DNA from: Myrmaecium sp. VS I D KN 1
Lineage: Eukaryota > Ascomycota > Dothideomycetes > Valsariales > Valsariaceae
Length of the DNA: 64,000 nucleotides
Assembly (NCBI GenBank): GCA_019775845.1
Contig: JADQAV010000043.1
Coordinates: 124,001-188,000, forward strand
Direction of reading: 5' to 3'
In this document: piece by piece, positions 618 to 57,877 of the stretch
How positions within the stretch are numbered: the stretch's first letter is position 1
Layout of the letters: each line of letters starts with the position of its first letter
The notes under the pieces: generated by a model
The model's input: the letters and a program-made list of their open reading frames with translations, nothing else
Told to the model about the DNA's origin: nothing
The model's database searches: none
Made by a program: the position numbers and the translations under genes

Positions 618-3670
<3,053 letters not shown>

Positions 3671-12281: not shown

Positions 12282-15200
12282 CTACGCCCCGCCCAAGCCA
12301 GCAGCAAAAGCCAAATACCACGTGCGACTGGCGCCGCCATCGAGGTAATCGTAGTCGAAGTCGGATTGAGCGAAGAAGTTGTAGCTGGTGACGGGGTCGG
12401 AGATGGCGAGGTTGGCGTAGAGGATGCCGCGCCAGCCGCCGGCGACGGCCGAGGCCGGGTCGGACGCGTCGTCGGCGAAGTACTGCGACCATTCCTCGGC
12501 GACGAAGGTCGCGGTGCGCGTCAGCGGGGAGGAGGGGTTGAGGGGGATCATGTGGATGCTGTGTGGTTGTTGGGGTTAGCGAGGTTCAGAATGGGTGGGG
12601 GATGGATGGATGGATGGACGACGTACCCCTCGATATACTCGGTATTAGTGCCAAAGTACGTGACGTGATCGCACTTGTTCTCGAACAGGATGCCCGTCAC
12701 CCGGTTCCCGATGAACTTGGACGGCTGGACGGTGTTGTCCTCGGCCATGAGGAAGTAGCTCTGCAGCGACCGCGCCTGGATCTTCAGCATCAGGTTGCCC
12801 CGGGCCTCCATGTTCGCGTCCCCGGACACCTTGCCCCACATCTTGATCGCGTACGAGGCGAAGGCGTCCTCCGACGAGGACTCCTCGTCCTTCCCGTCCG
12901 CGCTCTCAAACAGGCCCTTCGCCCACGAGTGGCCGTGGTACCAGTCGAACGAGCGGGAGAAGGGAAAGTAGGGGTCCTCGGTCGAGGGGTTGGCGAAGTC
13001 GCGCACGAGCATGTTCACCCAGGCCTTGTTGGTACCATCGGTGAGCCAGTCGGGATCGAGGTAGCCCAGGACGGCGGCGGTGTAGACGAAGTAACCGTAG
13101 TGGAAGTGGTGGTCGTTGTAGTAGGTGTTGCCAAAGTCGCTGCCGCTGTCGCCGGTCGTGTACGAGGCGGAGGACACGGCGCCCTTCCACACGGAGTCGT
13201 AGACCAACGGGTAGTTCTGCGTGTTGGAGATGAACGTGCTGAAGGCCGACTTCAACGTGGTGAGGGCGCTCTGGGCGAGGCTGGTGTCCCCGCCGAGGTC
13301 GTTGACGGTCACGATGGCCATGGCGAACTTGGCAAAGGCCTTGCCGGAGTAGTACATGCTGTCCAAGTCGGTCTGGGACACGATATCCTCAGCCAACTCG
13401 TACGCGGCAGCAGAGTTCACGGCGGCCTTGGCGGTGTCGCTCAGGGACGTGACCGCACCGGTGGTCGGGCTCCACGGACCGAAACCCATGTCGGTGGGCA
13501 AATCACTCTCCACCAGGGTCCAGCTATCCTTCAGCACAGCAGCAGCAACACCCTTGGTGGTGGTCTGAAGCTCGATGGCCGTCTGAGCGGCCGACGTGGT
13601 GGAGTCGAAGGACGCCTGGTGGTGAGGAAGCGCGAACATGAGCAGGGTCCGGTCCGTGTTGCCGGCCTTGGTCCAGCTGAGCTGGTAGGTGGCGGTGGTA
13701 CCGGCGACGGAGGCAGAGATGCTGGCGGAGGTGGCGTAGACACCGGCGGACTGGTCGTAGGTGGTCGCCGCGTCGGAGTCGTCGGTGGGGACCTTGGCCA
13801 CCTGCATGATGCCGCTGAACGTACCCGTGGAGGTGATGGCACCGTTGAGAAGGGTGAGGGTGGGAACGTTGTCACCGGTGAGGTAGATGAGCCAGGTGAT
13901 CCCGTTGTCGAGCACCACGGTGTACTTGAAGGTGTTCTCGGTCCCGTCGACGGTCGAGACCGGCGTGAGGGAGGTGAAACCAGTGTTGGACTGGAGTCCC
14001 GGGGTGGCACCGTTGTAGATGGCGGTGATGAAACCGGCACCCTGCACGAGCGGGAAGGTAATCAGCGGGTCACCACCGGAGGTCGACGCCAGGTTGACAT
14101 TCACGGAGAAACCGGTCAGGCTGTCGACGGTGAGAGTCGTGTCGGAACCGAGCTCGACCGCCGTCAAGATCAACTGCTCCGAGCCGACCGGGCTGACAAA
14201 GTAGCGCGCTGGGTCGCCAGAGTCATAGCTGAATCCCGAAGCATCCGTGTGCTGAATCGCCATGCCGTACGCGCCGGACACCGAGCCACCCTTGGCCCAC
14301 TGCACCACGTAGGGGTGAAGCCAAGCCGAGTTCTCTTGGGTGCCGAGAATGAAATTCTCGTAAAACTTGTTGGTTTGGTATGCGATGTCGTCGGAGCGCT
14401 TGGCGTTGGAGGAAGCAGAAACGATGGCAGACGGGGAGACAGGATGGTCGGCTCGGGAGGTGATCTGAGAGGGCGGAGCGTCGGTCGCGATGGCAACGAA
14501 GATGTTATCAGCGAGCGAGGAAGCGGAGACGACAGAGGTGGAGGACGAGGCGGCGGCGGCAGCGGAGCTGGTCACGGTGAGGAGGGTGCTCAGACTGGAC
14601 GTCGCGACGCCGGCGCTCGGGCTGGAAACCGTGGCAGGGCTGGAGCTCACAACCGCCGGGGTAGAGACAACAGCCGAGCTCAACGGAGTAGACACAGCCG
14701 AGCTGACAGGCACCGCAACGGAGCTGGAGACAAGAACCTCGACCGACGAGCTCGACACAACCAACGCGCTCGAGGCAACTGCAGCGCCAGACGTAGCGAC
14801 GATGCCGGGAGTGAATCCGGAGACGACGCCGGGAACGACAGCGGCAGAGGCCTCCACCGATGTCGACACACCGGAAGCAACCGCGCTCGAGCCGACGGCA
14901 ACAACCCTGCTGCTGCTCGCACCGGCAACAGCCGAAGTGACCGGAATCGCCGAGGAAGTGACAACGACGGTGGCGAAGCCAGACTGCGTCGGAGTCGGCA
15001 CCGAGACGGGCAACGACGAGGTGATGGTGATCGCCGACACGACCGCCGAGGAGGAAGACAAGCCAGCAGCAACGGTGGAACCACCCACGGCCGGAGTTGA
15101 AGTTGCCACAGCCGCGGTCGACCTCGGGGAGGTCAGACCGGCCAAGCTGCTCAGGGTCATCAACGTCGGGGCAACGGTTGCACTGGTCATGCCCGGCTGC

Positions 15201-16597
15201 ACGGTGGTCGTGTAGCTCACCTTCGTCGTGAACGTCTGGTACGTGGTGACATAGACCGTCTCACCGCCGGCGCCCATGGTGGCCGAGGTCAGGTACGTCG
15301 TGATGGTGACGTGCTGCGCCGTGGCCACCGCGTTGCCGGACACGGTGCCGATGGCGGTCATGATGTCCTCCGGGCAGTCGTTGACCTCCTCGATCCACCG
15401 GTAGTAGTTGTGGTACCGGTAGTAGTAGTAGAACTTGTACACCTCCTTGACCAGCTCAGCACCGGTGCTGCCGGCAGCAGAGACGGTGGTTGCAACCAGC
15501 TCGCTAGAGACGGCGACTGGGGCGGAGGAGACAGCCACGGACGTGACAGCGGCGGCAGTGGTGACGGGAGTTGCAGAGCTCACGGCAACAGCGACAGAGG
15601 TAACCGGAGAAGAAGAGCTGACCACGGAAACAGCAGCGCTGGTAACCGGCGCAACGGTAGACGTAGTCGGCTCGCTCACCTCGATCACGTCCGCGCTGCT
15701 GGCGACCGCGGCAAGGTCTTCATTGATGTCAAGAGTCAAATGAGGCGTGCTTTCCGCGGCCTTGAGCTCCGCGTCAACCGTGATGGAGAGGGAAGCAGAT
15801 GCTGTAACTGTGGACGAAGCCTCCGCGGTGGAAGTGCTCACTGCGGTAGAGGAAGCCTCCGCGGTAGAAGCAGAAGCCTCAGCCGAAGAGGAAGCCACTG
15901 CCGTAGAAGACACTGCCGCCGTAGAGGAAAAGTCCACAGTGGAAGAGGCTTCGGCGGTAGACGAAGCAAGAGCAGAGACCGTGAGATCCGAGATATCAGT
16001 CAGAGTCACATACGCCGTGCCACCGACCACGCCCGTCGCCGAAGAGGAAACCTCTGCCGTCGTAGAAAAGTCCACAGTGGAAGAGGTCTCCACAGCAGAC
16101 GAAGCGGAGGCCGAGACCGTAACGTCCGAGATATCAGTCAGAGTCACATAAGCCGTGCCGCCCACCTCACCCGACGCCGTCGCCGATTCCGTCGCAGAAA
16201 CCAGCTCCCCATCCACCGTCACCGTCACCACGTTAACCGCCGGGCACAGGCCGTCCTCCGTCGCCGACACCGCCGCCGCACCCTCCAGGTTGTGCGCGAT
16301 CGGCAGCGAGCTCGACGCGGAAGTAGAGGCCACGGTCCCCGTCTCAACTGAAGAAATCACCTTCGTCGACGCGGCCGCGGACCCATCCAGCGTGAACGTC
16401 GGCAGCGTGGTCGCGGATGCCGTGGCGGAGTCACCCGCGGAAAGGCTGAGGCCGCTGTAGGAAGCGCTCGAGGAGAGTGTGGACACGTCCGCTACGGAGG
16501 AGCTCCATATCGATACCGGGTCGTCTCGTTCGACGAGTGGTCGGCCGGATACCTGCGAGGCGAGTAGTATGGGTAGTAGATAACGGCGGGGCGCCAT
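12282..16597 (-). CDS. Secreted endo-1,3-beta-glucanase, glycoside hydrolase family 81, with long Ser/Thr stalk
   Basis: Cleaves 1,3-beta-glucan, probably in the cell's own wall (septum or conidial separation, as for the yeast Eng1 and Aspergillus EngA types). There are two exons, 16597-12627 and 12558-12282, with a 68-nt intron, giving 1,415 residues. A signal peptide (MAPRRYLLPILLASQVSG) is followed by about 700 residues of Ser/Thr/Ala/Val. This includes two tandem copies of a 46-residue unit (core TAYVTLTDISD) and, near residue 390, an unusual Tyr-rich patch (KFYYYYRYHNYYRW). A dibasic KR near residue 733 lies just before the GH81 domain, a likely Kex2 site. The catalytic domain starts at IAYQTNKFYENF and holds the hallmark DGKDEESSSED with the essential Glu cluster near residue 1230, then GIHMIPLNPSS across the splice. 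I chose the ATG at 16597 because it opens the signal peptide. Confidence 0.93.
15990..16169 (-). repeat. Tandem 138-bp in-frame repeat in the GH81 stalk
   Basis: The sequence gagatatcagtcagagtcac occurs at 15990 and again at 16128, exactly 138 bp (46 codons) apart and in frame. Both copies encode TAYVTLTDISD followed by similar Ser/Thr-rich filler with VDFS. This is a coding minisatellite in the low-complexity stalk. Confidence 0.8.
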
Positions 16598-19148
16598 GAT
16601 GTGAAGGGAGGGAGGGGAGAGTGTGTGAGAGTGTGCAAGGGGGATCACTTGCCAGTACAAACACTAGATAGAGAATTATACCCTCGCGGAGATATGCGAG
16701 GGAGACGGTATAGGAGAGAGTAGAGTAGGGTAGAGTAGGTAGAGTAATTAGAAATGGAGATAGTGAGGGACGAGAGGACGAGGCAAGGCTGGACTACACC
16801 AAGCCAGGCCACAGAGAGAAGATGGAGTGAGACTGGATAGAGAAAAAACCCTATCGCGGCAACGAGAGATATGAGTAAGTGGAGATAGCGAGTGAAAAAA
16901 AGACTGGCAGAGCGTAAAGCACTGTCAGAAGTCTTGTAACGAGAGGAAGACTTGAAGCTTGAGAAATGGAGGTCTATATTAAATATCCACGCCGTAAACA
17001 GCTCGGCCCATCCAAGGGAGATCTAGATGATGCTGTGAGCCTGGTGTTGCTGGGGGGACATTGACAATAGTGCAATGGGTTGCCCGCGACACCTGCTCGA
17101 AATAATGACTTGCCGTTGGAGTAGTCAGCTCATGACGAAATGGTTCTGCTTAGCCTTGAGCTCGCCCGAGGGGCATGGTGATGAAGCATGAGGATTCCCG
17201 GGGCAACAGAGTATTGGTTCGGAGGGCGAAAGGTTGGAGAAGGAGATCCGAGGGCAGAAAACGGTGTCCGTCGCTTGGCAATCGTCTGGTGGTGAGGGCC
17301 AGGCGTGTAGAGACAGTCCACGGCGAATAGAGTTGAATGAAACCCCACATGGGAAGCGTGCACAACTCTTGGCCTTGGACGAATGCAGAAACACAGTTTT
17401 GGCAGCAATGAAAACGAAATGAACGGTCGTGGAGCAAGCCTGTGAACAGGCTGAACATAAAAGCGTGCCCATCCCCGCGTCTAGGATACCTGCTCTGGGG
17501 GTTGATGATGAGAGTGAATCTACTCGATGAAGTCAGAAGTCACAGGGCAGGAGGGACAGTCTCCCGCTCGGTGTGCGGCCAAGCCCGACAGCCACATGGC
17601 CCGCGACGAATGACTCCGAGGACGGCTCCCTTTGATCGACAAGGCAGCGGCAGGGGAGGGATCGACAGCAGGGACGAAGCCCGGGATAGGAGCAGGGGGG
17701 CATGGCCGGCTGGGACACGCGTCGGGGTTCTGTGTTTGGTTTCCGGGGGAAACGTAAACAAGGGGGGTGTGGTTAGCTTGTTGCTGTCCCCCTTCAGCCA
17801 CGATCGGTCTTTTGCTGCCGGGGAGCCCTGTTCGTTTGTCTCCCGGCTCGGTCCGGGATGAAGGATCGACGATCATCAGCAGGGCAGCAAGCAGCAAGGA
17901 GCAAGGCCAGGCGATCTCTCCGGCTGTGTGTGCAGGGACTGCGAGCTGGCCTTGATGCTCTCTGCACATCACCGACTGCTTGGGTTCATGGCGATCGGCT
18001 GGCAGGGCAGTTGTCAGGGGAGGGAGGAAATCCTCCGAATGGCGCTTGGTGTGGGTGCCCGTCAGTGGGGATGGTCTGCAGTTAGAGCCAGATGGCCCAG
18101 ATAGGCGTGACTATAGGCAAGGCTGTACGCATGAAGCTGTTGTTGTGGTTGGCGCAATGGAGCTGGAGCATTGATGTCGTGAAATGAGGTTGATCAGGAG
18201 CCGCAACGACCTTTCCCCGTTCCGGCTAGGCCCGACGTTTATTTCCGCCGGCGGGATCAGCCTGAGGCTCAGCCAGGAACAGGCGGAGCTCGTATGCAGC
18301 AGCAACTTCCCAGCCTCAGGCCTTCTTTATTCTTCAGCTGTCCTGAGTCGTAACTGTGGGGGGGGGGGGGGGGGNNNNNNNNNNNNNNNNNNNNNNGACC
18401 TGGCACGTCCTGCCTGATGACGCGATTGACCTGCATAAGCTGTGCGTCCATGCACAATGTCTTGCATGATCATCAGGCTCGTCTGAAGCCCGTGCCTCAG
18501 GCACTGCACTTGCAAACCTCATCACAACCATTTCCACCTCACTCGCGCGCTCAACGTTGGGTGTATAAGAAAAGAACTATAACAAACCGATAATGTAGTC
18601 TGGGATCTCGTAGTTCTCCTATATCCAAGGGTTCAGGGCACACGGAACCAGCCCGCAGCCGTTGCCCGGTCCACCAACCACCGGCCGGCCGCGTAGCTCC
18701 AACCTTCTCCTTGTTGGAGGGCCCCTTTTCCCCGTGCCCGGCAACGAGGTCGATGTGGTCCGTCATCGGTTTGGCATTCGTGCTTCGTTTGCTGTGGGAG
18801 AGCTGGCAATGGATTGGCTCGGTATAGAGGAGGCCTGCTGCGGCGACCGCGTGGTCTACGGGTACGGCGGCCGGCTACCGCTCCGTGGTGAGGCTCTCGT
18901 TGTCGGCTACAGGAGGCACGGTTTATATTCCATCCCATAAAAGTGAGGAAACAGGTGAGATAGTCTAATGATCCAGGGGAACCAGTGATAGATATAGTCA
19001 TATAGATTCAAATATATTCCCCAAAGACAGATATGGTGGCCCACATCTCCACACCAGAAAAGCATTCACACGCCCTATCCCCTAAAAGACCCGAAACACC
19101 ATCGCTAACAGCAAAGATCCAAAAAAAACCACCACACTTACCAACCCA
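16598..19148. other. Intergenic region containing an assembly gap, no gene seen
   Basis: This is the promoter side of the GH81 gene (purine-rich GAGA/AGAGTAG repeats about 16600-16880) followed by mixed sequence without a convincing coding region. A run of 17 G followed by 22 N lies at 18358-18396. Short open frames across 17,100-18,900 have no family signature. Confidence 0.4.
18358..18396. other. Poly-G run followed by assembly gap (22 N)
   Basis: Seventeen consecutive G (18358-18374) run directly into 22 N (18375-18396). This is probably a scaffold join or a sequencing dropout at a G homopolymer; the true length of the interval is unknown. Confidence 0.95.
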
Positions 19149-26496: not shown

Positions 26497-28318
26497 ATGG
26501 CTAAGCTCACCCTCGCTCTCGCGGCTGCCGCCACTCTCCTTCACGTCGCCGGCGCAGCTCCCCTTGCGCCACGCGCCGAAGAAAGCGGATCGTTACGCGG
26601 GCCGACCAACCTGCGCGGCTACTCCCCGACCAACACCCTCAGTTCCGAAGACACGGACGACTTTTCCTACACTCTCGTCCCGGGCCAGACGCAGGATGCC
26701 AACCTCGGCCTCTACCTCGACTTCTCGAATGTCGAACGGCCGCAGCCGATCCGCGGGTCCAAGGGCGGCAATGAGCCGGGACCAAGTGCGTTTCTGCGCG
26801 CCTCGCTACCAGTTCGATCGACTTGCTGATAGCTCTTTCAGATGAGAATGAGATCTCGAGGCAGAACTCGGACAAGTTGGCTCCCCCGGGCACTGACCAC
26901 GGACAGACCATCAACGCGCAGTGGCCGATGGGTAGGTGCTTCGTCTCTGCGAGGAAAGACGCTCGCTTGCTAACATCTGCATTTTAGCATTGAGTCATTC
27001 CAAGTAAGCCGATTGGACGACGCACTAATCGAATTGACTGACGACGGGTCACAGACTCGGCCTGAAGGGCGCGGGATGGTCCCGCCAGGAGAACACGGTG
27101 GTCATGCCGGATGCGACGCTCATGGCCGGCGTCGACATGCGCTTGGAGCCTGGCGGATACCGCGAACTACACTGGCACGTCGCGGGCGAGTGGTCGATCG
27201 TGCTGAACGGATCGGCGCGAATCCAGGTTCGTCCGTTCTCCTTCCCGGCGGGATTCGTGCGACATACTCACCAGACAGGCCGTGGATACGGATGGGCATA
27301 CGTTCGTCGATGATGTGACCAAGGGAGACGTGTGGTTCTTCCCGCCGTGAGTCCCGCAGTCGCTTCCCCGCGCGGAGCGTGTCGCTGATGAAAGGGCTGT
27401 AGCGGCATCCCCCACAGCATCCAGGGCCTCGAAGGCGGCGTTGAATTCATGCTTGTCTTTGACGATGGCGATTTCTCGGAGGATAACACCTTCCTCGCCT
27501 CGGAGATCTTTGCGCACAATCCGGTACGTGGTCTGCATCTTTCAGCGATGGCTTTGCCGTTCTCTATCATCATTCCAGGCCTAACTTAGCCACAGAAAGA
27601 GGTTCTCTCGAAAAACCTCAACGTCCCCGTATCCGCCTTCGACGACATCCCCGACGGCGAACTCTTCATCTTCCCCGGCACACCAGCACCCACCAACATC
27701 TCAGCCCAGAACATCACGGGCAGCGCAGGCATCCTGCCGCAAGCATCCTCCTACAGCTACCACTTCAGCGAGCAGGAGCCGCTCGAAGTGGCAGGCGGAA
27801 CGGTCAAGATCATCGACCCGGCGACGTTCCCGATCGCGAGCAAGTTCAGCGCGGCGCTGGTGACGATCCGGCCGGGCGCGATGCGGGAGATCCACTGGCA
27901 CCCGGACAGCGACGAGTGGAGCTTCTTCCTGGCGGGCCGGGCGCGGGCGACGCTGTTCACGCCGCCGAAGACGGCGACGACGTTCGACTTCCGCGCCGGC
28001 GACGTCGGCTACTTCCCCCAGAGCAACAGCCACTACATCGAGAACGTGGGGGATGAGGACGTGGTGCTGTTGGAGGTTTTGCAGGCGGATCACTTTAGCG
28101 GTGAGTGCATCCTTTTGAGATACGGGAGAGGATTCACCTAGGCTGACTTCAATTTGGGGAATGTTGTAGATATGAGCCTGGGACAGTGGCTCGGCCTCAC
28201 CCCGCCCCAGATCGTCGAGGATACCCTCAATTTGAGCCCGGAGACGGTGGCCAAGTTCAATCGGGAGAAGCAGTATGTGGTGCAGGGCTTGCCGCCGAAC
28301 GAGACGGTGAACTCGTAG
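26497..28318 (+). CDS. Secreted oxalate decarboxylase, bicupin
   Basis: Converts oxalate to formate and CO2 with manganese, typically to limit oxalate or buffer an acidified medium. I read eight exons: 26497-26785, 26842-26931, 26988-27003, 27055-27226, 27279-27346, 27403-27523, 27596-28100 and 28170-28318, giving 469 residues in consistent phase; the third exon is only 16 nt. The signal peptide is [20 protein letters not shown]. Cupin 1 has the metal set HWHVAGEW (His171, His173, Glu178) and a later IPHSIQG His. Cupin 2 has HWHPDSDEW (His352, His354, Glu359) and NSHYIEN. The stretch FSEDNTF between the two matches the position of the active-site lid in bacterial OxdC, favouring decarboxylase over oxidase. 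The enzyme family is clear; its role in this species is inferred. Confidence 0.93.
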
Positions 28319-38172: not shown

Positions 38173-38715
38173 ATGAAGTACCTCACCCTCCTCACCCTCG
38201 CCACCGCCGCCTCCGCCGCTCCCTTCGGCAACCTCCTCCACCACAAGGGACACAGCAACTCGACCGTCGCGGCCAACAGCACATCCGTCGCCAAGCCATG
38301 CACCACCGGCGAACCCTTCGCGCCCCTCCTCTCCGCCGTCGCCGAGGTCAAGAGCGAGCTGGGCGAGAAGGCCACCCTGCTCGCGCCCTTCGAGTCCGCC
38401 CTGCCCAAGGCGACCGGCTCCCTGCTCGAGAAGCGCAACGACGACAAGCATGAGGACAAGAAGGAGAAGAGCCACAAGGACGGCAAGAGCAAGGAGGAGC
38501 ACAAGAACAGCAAGGGCAAGAGCAAGAGCAAGGAGGAAGGCCATCACAAGGCTACCTCCACCACTTCTTCCTCTTCTTCTTTCGTCCCTCTTCCTACCGG
38601 CACCGGCTCTTGGAAGCACCACCCCAGCAGCGGCACTGGCCTTCCCTTCCCGACCGCCTCTCCCTCTGGCTCCAAGATCTACCACTTCCCCTCCGTCTCC
38701 GCCTCTAGCTCTTAA
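38173..38715 (+). CDS. Small secreted Lys/His/Ser-rich protein, 180 aa, unrecognised
   Basis: No known family. A clean signal peptide (MKYLTLLTLATAASA) is followed by a short region with possible N-glycosylation sites (NSTVAANSTS) and a single Cys, then a dibasic LLEKRNDD near residue 94 that looks like a Kex2 site. The second half begins with about 35 residues of mixed charge (KHEDKKEKSHKDGKSKEEHK) and ends in Ser/Thr/Pro/Gly with His (SWKHHPSSGTG). Codons are almost all C- or G-ending, unlike random frames nearby, which suggests high expression. The in-frame frame extends upstream to 37984, but 38173 gives the signal peptide and sits in good context (CCCAAGATG). A secreted wall or effector-like protein is possible; the charged block could bind metal or polyanions. 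Confidence 0.75.
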   Translation: MKYLTLLTLATAASAAPFGNLLHHKGHSNSTVAANSTSVAKPCTTGEPFAPLLSAVAEVKSELGEKATLLAPFESALPKATGSLLEKRNDDKHEDKKEKSHKDGKSKEEHKNSKGKSKSKEEGHHKATSTTSSSSSFVPLPTGTGSWKHHPSSGTGLPFPTASPSGSKIYHFPSVSASSS

Positions 38716-41018: not shown

Positions 41019-42413
41019 TCAGCAGTACTGCACCGTCGGCTGAGGGTAGCACGGCGGTGAAGACATGTCCCAGTAGGAGGTCACCGGCGTCGGCGGGCAC
41101 CACGTCTCATCCAACACCGGCTCGTACTCGAACGAGGCTGGAGGCGTGGGCTGGAACTGGCCCGGGTGATGGTAATACTGGCCCATGTCCACCGTCTTGA
41201 CCTGGATGTCCCAGCCGGGCTGGTGCTGTTGCGAGTTGCTGTGCTGCATCTCGTGCGACTGTTGAGAGGGCACGATGTGGGGCACGTCCTGGGAAGGCAG
41301 GACGTGTTGCGGAGGCAGCCACATGTCCTCGGCAGGCGAGCGGGCCCCGTCCGACGTGCTGGCGCTGCGCATCGACTGAGCTGTGTGGTTCGATTCGATG
41401 GAGGGAGCGGGCGACACCAAGGAAGGGGAGACAACGCCCGGCTGGATGAGGGACAGGTTCTGCAGCGGCGCAGGCACGTGTCGCGCAGGCACCATCGGCG
41501 CCGAAGAGGCAACTGGGTGCTGCTCGTACTTGAACAACTTGCTGTCCTGCGACGGCAGCATCTGAAAGGCGTTCTCCATGTGCGGTGGGTGTTGGTGGTG
41601 GACAAACATGTCAGGAGCGGCGTAGGCCACCGGAACAGGCTGCACGGGGTGGTGGTAGCCGTGGGGCGAAGGGTGACCGAAATGTTGGGGAGGGGAGGGC
41701 GTAATCTGGTCCATCGCCGGAACCATCTCGACGCCGTCCTCGAAGTCTTCCTCCTGGAGGGAGTACTTCCACTTCTTGCCACGAAGAAGGGAGTCGCGGA
41801 TCCTCAGGTTGGCGATGCGCGGGTCCTGGCATGGGCGCTTGAGCCTGCCCGACTTGACGTCGTCGAGGCTGTAGTATGAGACAAGATGGATGGTGGCGCC
41901 GTCGCAGCGAACACTCATGCTCTTCTTGATGAGGCCGCCCTCCTTGAACTCGTAGGTGTCAGTCAAGGGACCGACGTATTTGCGGTCGACGTCGGTGTCG
42001 AAGAGAATATGCTTCTGGTGTGCCGTGGGCGTCGATTCGGACGGAGAGTAGTAGGTGGTCTGGATGGAGAGAGGACGGTAAGAACGAGCCTTCTTCAGGA
42101 CTCTCCGCTGGGTCCCAGGAGGGAAGTCCTTGTCGAGCTCGCGGTAGAAGAGGAAGTTGCCCATGGTTCGGCTGGGACTCCAGATGACGGTGTCGGTCCA
42201 ACGCTTGATGCCAGAGACGCGCTCGTCGAAGACGAAAACGTAGCCGCTCTTGGTAAGGAACTCCTTCTCGCCTTCGCTGGGGCGACGCCAGATCAAAGGG
42301 CAGATACCCTGGAGGCATGCCTCGATCAGCTGGAGACCGTCCATGCTGGTTTGGACGAAGCCATAGAAGGCCGGGGAGGGCTCGTCATTCCCACTGCCAG
42401 GAATGTGTGCCAT
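41019..42413 (-). CDS. Gti1/Pac2 (WOPR) family transcription factor
   Basis: A nuclear DNA-binding regulator of the WOPR family, which includes Wor1/Ryp1/Sge1 and Gti1/Pac2 and controls morphological switching, conidiation, sexual onset or nutrient uptake in fungi. The WOPR-a half begins near residue 16 (FYGFVQTSMDGLQLIEACLQ) and contains the hallmark SGIKRWTDTVIWSPSRTMG. WOPR-b near residues 162-210 contains LIKKSMSVRCDGATIHLV, SYYSLDDVKSGRL and DPRIANLRIR. The spelling RRPSEGEKEFLTKSG and GIKRWTD suits the Gti1/Pac2 side better than Ryp1/Sge1, but this is a judgement by eye. The C-terminal half is disordered and rich in His, Pro, Gln and Ser, as in the family. I chose the only in-frame ATG, 42413 (MAHIPGSG), giving 464 residues. 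About 12 kb of upstream DNA has no recognisable gene. Confidence 0.9.
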   Translation of the reverse strand: MAHIPGSGNDEPSPAFYGFVQTSMDGLQLIEACLQGICPLIWRRPSEGEKEFLTKSGYVFVFDERVSGIKRWTDTVIWSPSRTMGNFLFYRELDKDFPPGTQRRVLKKARSYRPLSIQTTYYSPSESTPTAHQKHILFDTDVDRKYVGPLTDTYEFKEGGLIKKSMSVRCDGATIHLVSYYSLDDVKSGRLKRPCQDPRIANLRIRDSLLRGKKWKYSLQEEDFEDGVEMVPAMDQITPSPPQHFGHPSPHGYHHPVQPVPVAYAAPDMFVHHQHPPHMENAFQMLPSQDSKLFKYEQHPVASSAPMVPARHVPAPLQNLSLIQPGVVSPSLVSPAPSIESNHTAQSMRSASTSDGARSPAEDMWLPPQHVLPSQDVPHIVPSQQSHEMQHSNSQQHQPGWDIQVKTVDMGQYYHHPGQFQPTPPASFEYEPVLDETWCPPTPVTSYWDMSSPPCYPQPTVQYC

Positions 42414-56506: not shown

Positions 56507-57030
56507 GGGTGTTGTTGTCGTGGTGTAAAGATTTTGGAAAGCGTAAGCTTTTATGAAGGTAGGCAATGACGCCAAGGTGAAGGTGACAAGAAAGCGGCGC
56601 CCGTTTTTTGACTGTGACTGTAACTCGACCGAAAGCGACAAGCATTGTGAAGTCAATTCGTGAAAACTGACCAATGAAAGGGGCTAAGCCCCGTGACTTG
56701 AAGTAGCACTTCGCACCCAAAGACTGATGACGAATGGGAGCCCCGTCAAGTTCGTGGACAGTCCTGTGACACCTGAGAGAGCAAGCGAAGATGACCCAAA
56801 TAGTCTAGATTTTTTTTGTGCCCGCCCGCTGTATGATGATACAAAACCAAACGCCTTCGCGCCAGACTACCTGGCCTGCCATAACGATCCATCTTTGAAG
56901 GGAAACCAGGATGACGATAAAGAACGCATGTAGATCAAAACGACAACAAGAGAAAAAAGAGATGATGGTAAGGAAAACGAAGATCAAAAAGAAACATCCC
57001 CGACGGAGAGTCGGCTATAAAGACATCTTC

Positions 57031-57137
57031 TTAGAAGATAGAGTTGACCAAGTTGGAACCCGCGGTCGCACCTGGAAATCGCAAGAATCAGCACGTTTAG
57101 AAGATGGAGTTAACAATGTTCGATCCGATGGTCGCAC
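57031..57137 (-). repeat. Tandem duplication of the last 41 coding nt of the SH3 gene
   Basis: The 41 nt from GTGCGACC to the stop codon (57137-57097) are repeated at 57071-57031 after a 25-nt spacer holding a branch site (GCTGATT) and acceptor (TTTCCAG). The copies encode ATIGSNIVNSIF and ATAGSNLVNSIF. Of six differing codons, four are synonymous. Confidence 0.9.
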
Positions 57138-57877
57138 CAGCTCCAAAGATAGCGGCATTGCCCAGCTTCTTGCCGAACTTCTTGCCCATTTCCGCGCCCT
57201 TGCTGTCCTTCTGCGGCTGCTGCTCCCCGTTGCTGCCACCGCCCTGAGCGACCTCGAGAGGCACGTTGCCGTAGTTGGTGCCTGGATAGGCCGGTCCCTT
57301 GTTCTCCTCGACCCGAACGTAGCTGCGAGGGAAGATACCCTCCATGCCGCTGCGTTCACTGCGGCCCTTCCACCACTCGTTATTCATGTACTCCGTCACG
57401 GCGATACGATCGTTGGGCATCAAAGCTAAGTCGCCTGCGTCCTGGGCGTTGTATGTGTACAGGGCCGTGGCATAAGTGAGAACGACAGGCGCCGCGGGAG
57501 GAACAGGATACGCCGGCGGAGGAGGGTTATGGTTCACGGGCTGTGGAGTTGGCTGAGGGGTGTAATAGCCAGCCTTCTCATGCTCAGCGGCAGGGGCAGG
57601 GGCAGGGTTGTTGCTCTGGATCGAGAGGTTCTGGAGAGGAGCAACAGGGGCATCGGGTATGGCGGAGTTAGGAGCAGCAGCATTGGCCTCGGGGAGCTGG
57701 GAGAGAATATTTGAGAGTTGCGAGGGAGTCAAGACCTTCGCATCGGCAAGAAACTCGAGTTCCTGGAGTGAGATATCAGTGACTGCTTCACTTCCAGCCT
57801 GCGGAAGACAATCTTACCGCCCGGACAGTCCGGAGCGACCGGTTGATCATGGCCTGAGTGAGATTTTCGTAGGACAT
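57031..57877 (-). CDS. LSB1/PIN3-like SH3-domain protein with duplicated terminal coding segment
   Basis: Resembles yeast Lsb1 and Pin3/Lsb2, SH3 proteins that bind Las17/WASP and act in actin patches, endocytosis and prion induction. Exon 1 is 57877-57818, the intron 57817-57763, and exon 2 starts at 57762. The N-terminus (MINRSLRTVRAELEFLADAK, with residues before it) matches the family's helical start. The Pro-rich linker is followed by an SH3 domain at about residues 116-172 (ALYTYNAQDAGDL, NNEWWKGR, GIFPRSYV) and a basic tail (GKKFGKKLGNAAIFGAGA). Two 3' forms are possible. Read straight, the frame stops at 57097. If the 66-nt intron 57137-57072 is removed, the last exon is 57071-57031. 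Both give exactly 241 residues, ending GATIGSNIVNSIF or GATAGSNLVNSIF. See the findings. Confidence 0.85.

Follow-up and report, generated by a model that had tools for sequence, protein, structure and literature searches.

Does the 3' end of an LSB1/PIN3-like SH3 gene of the fungus Myrmaecium sp. VS I D KN 1 specify a single C-terminus, or two alternative C-termini chosen by the splicing or the retention of a short intron? The question is raised by a window of 64,000 nt (assembly GCA_019775845.1, contig JADQAV010000043.1, forward-strand positions 124,001-188,000; all coordinates below are those of the window), in which the terminal coding segment of this gene, including its stop codon, occurs twice.

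An SH3 gene with a duplicated terminal coding segment

The coding span of the gene (57031-57877) and all its parts described here lie on the minus strand. Exon 1 (57818-57877; 60 nt) is followed by intron 1 (57763-57817; 55 nt; donor GTAAGA, branch ACTGAT, acceptor CAG) and by exon 2, which covers 57138-57762 in the spliced form and extends to 57097 in the retained form. The first copy of the terminal segment (copy 1; 57097-57138) ends with the stop codon TAA and encodes the tail GATIGSNIVNSIF; it is contained, stop included, in the predicted intron 2 (57072-57137; 66 nt; phase 1; donor GTGCGA). The spacer that runs from the copy 1 stop to copy 2 (57073-57096) comprises a branch-like GCTGAT, at a distance of 17 in our intron scoring, and the acceptor TTCCAG minus its last G. 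Exon 3 (57031-57071) is the second copy (copy 2; 57072-57031 with the shared G), which also ends with TAA and encodes the tail GATAGSNLVNSIF.

The spliced and retained readings each comprise 726 coding bases and 241 residues. The 66-nt intron at 57137-57072, its phase and the two 241-residue products are as the initial annotation had claimed, with the addition that the upstream intron is needed: the count of 241 residues depends on the removal of the 55-nt intron 1 (57817-57763), which, if kept, leads to a stop after nine codons.

The encoded protein matches the Pfam family SH3_1 (E 2.4e-13). Among the 265 PDB sequences matched by phmmer the top one was the SH3 domain of an "actin-binding protein" (2k3b; E 2.8e-10), and the Pin3 SH3 domain (1ynz; E 6.4e-9) ranked fifth, below three "actin-binding protein" entries and a sorbin. 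By sequence similarity the SH3 domain is related to that of Pin3, though Pin3 is not singled out because other SH3 entries score higher than 1ynz, and this relatedness covers the SH3 domain alone, as the Pin3 chain compared is a 58-residue SH3 construct. The LSB1/PIN3 family name, which comes from the SH3 match and the label given in the initial annotation, is putative.

Aligned without gaps, copy 1 (57138-57097) and copy 2 (57072-57031) are identical at 33 of 42 bases, or at 32 of 41 without the preceding G. The proposal that the last 41 nt of the gene, stop included, are present twice, 66 nt apart, was therefore borne out in its coordinates and spacing, with a match of 32/41. Our recount of the codons also gave the same result as before: six differ between the copies, four of them synonymously, and past the shared Gly 10 of 12 residues agree, the two exceptions being Ile/Ala and Ile/Leu (copy 1/copy 2).

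This repeat exceeds chance. When copy 1 was placed without gaps at 127,916 sites on both strands of the window, the mean was 10.4 matches, and the best non-self site was copy 2 (33 matches), followed by a site with 24/42. Across the 22 predicted introns, the initial 41 bases were compared with those of the exon that follows: intron 2 gave 32/41 and the runner-up 19/41. A degenerate pattern built on the tails of copies 1 and 2 themselves has two occurrences in the window when three mismatches or fewer are allowed, and was seen in 0 of 100 dinucleotide shuffles; no third tail was found elsewhere in the window, be it with the exact pattern or with up to three mismatches. Just upstream of the shared G, the copies are alike at one of eight bases.

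Intron 2 carries usable splice signals

Intron 2 presents the GT, branch, AG, spacing and length of the spliceosomal introns of its host, with a total score in their range and a donor just below it. Scoring was based on 15 other inferred introns, a hand-chosen training set that excludes the candidate and six weak predicted introns. Intron 2 scored 19.2, as compared with 16.7-24.9 for these 15 introns (leave-one-out), two of which scored lower, and 7 of the 23,562 GT..AG pairs of the window (50-100 nt, outside predicted introns) scored as high or higher. With three other training sets (all 21 other introns; only the 20 that belong to other genes; a generic fungal consensus), 6, 14 and 51 of the 23,562 pairs reached the score of intron 2, and each time 6 of the 21 other predicted introns, which stayed in the training, fell below it. 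Its length of 66 nt compares with 49-95 nt for the 15 other introns. Its donor GTGCGA is the weakest of the 16, with a score of 4.4 that lies under all others (4.7-9.6). The combination of the branch GCTGAT and of TTCCAG is equalled by 3 of the 8,179 other AGs outside predicted introns, and GCTGAT is also the branch of two other inferred introns (26786-26841 and 27347-27402).

A gene finder trained on the window called 17 genes, containing 22 introns in all, and gave the SH3 gene in its spliced form; this choice is weak support, as the initial frames given to the program included that of the SH3 gene and its retraining used the candidate intron too. The acceptor AG of intron 2 sits exactly where the homology between the copies starts, a sharp boundary of the kind expected from selection on an exon. 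The scoring supports a usable intron, as had been proposed from the donor, the branch-like GCTGATT, the acceptor TTTCCAG and the normal length, and we regard intron 2 as probably real.

Both tails probably bear the mark of purifying selection

The two segments are homologous in sequence and frame (33/42 nt, 10/12 residues, a common phase and stop), and neither is frameshifted or interrupted by an early stop. The codon positions of their nine differences are 1, 2, 3, 3, 3, 1, 3, 3 and 3. Four of the seven four-fold sites differ, which corresponds to a Jukes-Cantor distance of about 1.1, a very rough value. Because of these four-fold changes, the duplication looks old, not recent, unless the second tail came already diverged. 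The differences are unevenly spread: the first three codons, which overlap the donor GTGCGA, are identical between the copies, and all four remaining four-fold sites differ.

In a neutral simulation run from two starting copies under three transition biases, nine random substitutions produced on average 5.5-5.9 residue changes, and two changes or fewer had a probability of 0.001-0.006. The pattern found (2/12 residues as compared with 4/7 four-fold sites) fits the purifying selection on both C-termini that the initial annotation had put forward; the evidence is moderate, since the test involves 14 codons only, the first three of which are identical. Since the differences are biased to silent sites and the copies look old, both tails have probably been translated for a long time.

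A model with two alternative C-termini

From these lines of evidence we propose, with a probability of about 0.58, that an old duplicated terminal segment has been retained as two alternative C-termini, chosen by splicing or retention. The last 13 codons and the stop of the LSB1/PIN3-like SH3 gene would have been duplicated in tandem long ago. The removal of the intron 57137-57072 would join exon 2 to copy 2, generating the tail GATAGSNLVNSIF, whereas leaving it in would put copy 1 to use, generating the tail GATIGSNIVNSIF. Intron 2 would be spliced from some mRNA and retained in other mRNA, and either mRNA would yield a complete 241-residue protein, so that retention would cost no length. Both tails would do the same basic job, and the two changed residues may matter little or just modulate it. 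An equal function with tolerated retention would be the simpler reading, and a modulated tail the bolder one.

The constitutive removal of intron 2, which would make copy 2 the working tail and copy 1 an intronic remnant, would agree with the good splice signals and with the description of fungal retention forms as mostly non-functional in the account of PMC3597508. We nevertheless regard it as unlikely, because a free intronic copy that has accumulated changes at 4/7 four-fold sites should display more residue, frame or stop changes than the 2/12 residues that we counted (P 0.001-0.006). Were intron 2 never spliced, copy 1, which runs on in frame from exon 2, would be the sole tail and copy 2 a duplicate lying in 3' untranslated sequence. 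The donor, the weakest of the 16 compared, would suit this explanation, but the branch and acceptor, as good at only 3 of the 8,179 other AGs, are positioned exactly at the repeat boundary, and the residues, frame and stop are all preserved in copy 2, which makes it very improbable.

The second tail could also have been acquired in an already diverged state, through conversion or recombination with a paralogue or another strain, in which case the silent differences would predate the arrangement and tell little about selection on it. The patchy pattern of three identical codons followed by four changed four-fold sites out of four would fit such an event. Set against it, the three identical codons overlap the donor GTGCGA and could be constrained by splicing, and the window, searched with the exact tail pattern or with up to three mismatches, holds no other tail that could have served as a source; an origin of this kind seems quite improbable to us.

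A more ambitious version of the model with two retained C-termini is that of an ancient and conserved two-tail switch in filamentous fungi, in which the duplication of the terminal segment across its intron would let the efficiency of splicing set the ratio of functional Ile/Ile versus Ala/Leu tails rather than ruin the protein. We consider it possible but doubtful. If true, ordinary retention noise would become a built-in control of the isoforms of an actin-linked SH3 protein, possibly tuned by stress. A gene in which the retained intron codes for a homologue of the replaced exon would offer a clean natural test of retention selected as an isoform choice, and the layout would also test how a duplicated coding segment enters an intron without loss of function. 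A role as a fail-safe under stress, an idea linked to the stress induction described for Lsb2 in yeast (PMC6767215), was weakened: unless intron 1 is taken out, the frame runs into a stop, and the SH3 gene thus still depends on splicing to some extent. For exon 2 plus the retained tail, a single-sequence structure model reached a mean pLDDT of 46.4, and the helix that it draws over the tail was disregarded.

How the layout may have arisen

The initial annotation had also likened the arrangement to the birth of an intron by tandem duplication. This stands in so far as two exonic copies bound the intron, with the donor in copy 1, and it falls short of the strict form. The original model, as outlined in PMC4974935 and PMC3443670, involves the duplication of an AGGT that is found in both copies, whereas copy 1 reads TG|GT and copy 2 AG|GT. 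Looser forms could still apply, such as the latent sites and "imprecise" gain mentioned in PMC3443670, the AGGC proto-site reported for fission yeast (PMC3629103) or the inherited splice signals reported for potato (PMC4974935). The comparison of the spacer with the sequence following copy 2 gave P values of 0.65 (31 nt) and 0.057 (61 nt), which we did not take as homology left over from a duplicated unit extending past copy 2; such flanking traces could well be erased because four of the seven four-fold sites have changed.

The branch and acceptor, which lie 3' of the copy 1 stop, may derive from former 3' untranslated sequence. A recent intron birth appears unsupported, given that the copies look old, that copy 1 has no AG before its GT and that flanking homology is gone. 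The duplication may have created intron 2, or an exon may have been copied into a pre-existing intron.

Comparison with known systems

The layout can be viewed as a variant on known systems of functional retention and of homologous exons. KRAS possesses two homologous last exons that are alternatively spliced in a mutually exclusive manner, exon 4A being derived from NRAS according to PMC9882654. Like KRAS, the SH3 gene has two homologous terminal coding segments that would provide alternative C-termini. Unlike the mutually exclusive exons of KRAS, the choice would be to splice or to retain, with one copy lying inside a 66-nt intron and with nearly identical tails.

In S. cerevisiae, PTC7 is the sole instance of retention with two functional mRNAs known to the authors of PMC3597508, who describe its isoforms as localising to different places; the other functional fungal cases that they mention are few and include SKI7/HBS1, which operates via alternative 3' splice sites. 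As in PTC7, where an intron is retained or removed, and as in SKI7/HBS1, two functional mRNAs are predicted from a single SH3 gene. In contrast to both, the part retained in the SH3 gene would code for a homologue of the exon that follows and would carry a stop of its own.

The intron gains by tandem duplication discussed in PMC3443670 and, for fission yeast, in PMC3629103 resemble our case in that two exonic copies bound the intron, the donor being in copy 1. They differ from it in that copy 1 of the SH3 gene lacks an AG before the GT, that the branch and acceptor are in the spacer past the stop, and that the copies look old.

Polyubiquitin genes are described as using dual-specific AGGT splice sites (PMC10809524). 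Behind the acceptor AG of the SH3 gene, copy 2 retains the same GTGCGACC (57073-57064, minus strand), so that its boundary AG|GTGCGA could, as in polyubiquitin, act as both acceptor and donor and be dual-specific. Unlike polyubiquitin, the SH3 gene has two copies only, and the copy 2 donor is without a good downstream acceptor, as the best one, at 57015, scores 12.3 versus 19.2 for intron 2. Among the literature matches listed, no fungal gene with the same two-tail layout stood out, which we do not take as a claim of its absence in print.

Searches for relatives and other features of the window

The search for relatives covered collections of viruses, prokaryotes and plasmids. With the protein of the retained form, or its SH3 part, as the query, 5, 61 and 26 pattern-matching stretches came up there, none of which was a relative by tblastn; the degenerate tail pattern found no match in the same collections, and the neighbouring KARI gene used as a query returned three stretches, none a relative. 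A blastn search of the plasmids gave no match. Because the collections are viral, prokaryote and plasmid, this absence of relatives is uninformative on fungi.

The gene content of the window includes a chitin synthase, a GH81 glucanase, a Gti1/Pac2 regulator and a Pex24p-type protein, and the introns are short, features that suggest a filamentous ascomycete. The chitin synthase gene (618-3670, plus strand) has six predicted introns, the first of which is weak and measures 45 nt. A run of 22 consecutive non-ACGT letters at 18375-18396 is probably an assembly gap. In the long stretch 30432-54606 the gene finder retained two genes only, at 38173-38715 (plus strand) and at 41019-42413 (minus strand); the latter is the Gti1/Pac2 (WOPR) regulator and has wide flanks. 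The GH81 glucanase frame (12551-16663, minus strand) is open over 1371 residues, with a long stretch ahead of its first Pfam match, which begins at residue 757.
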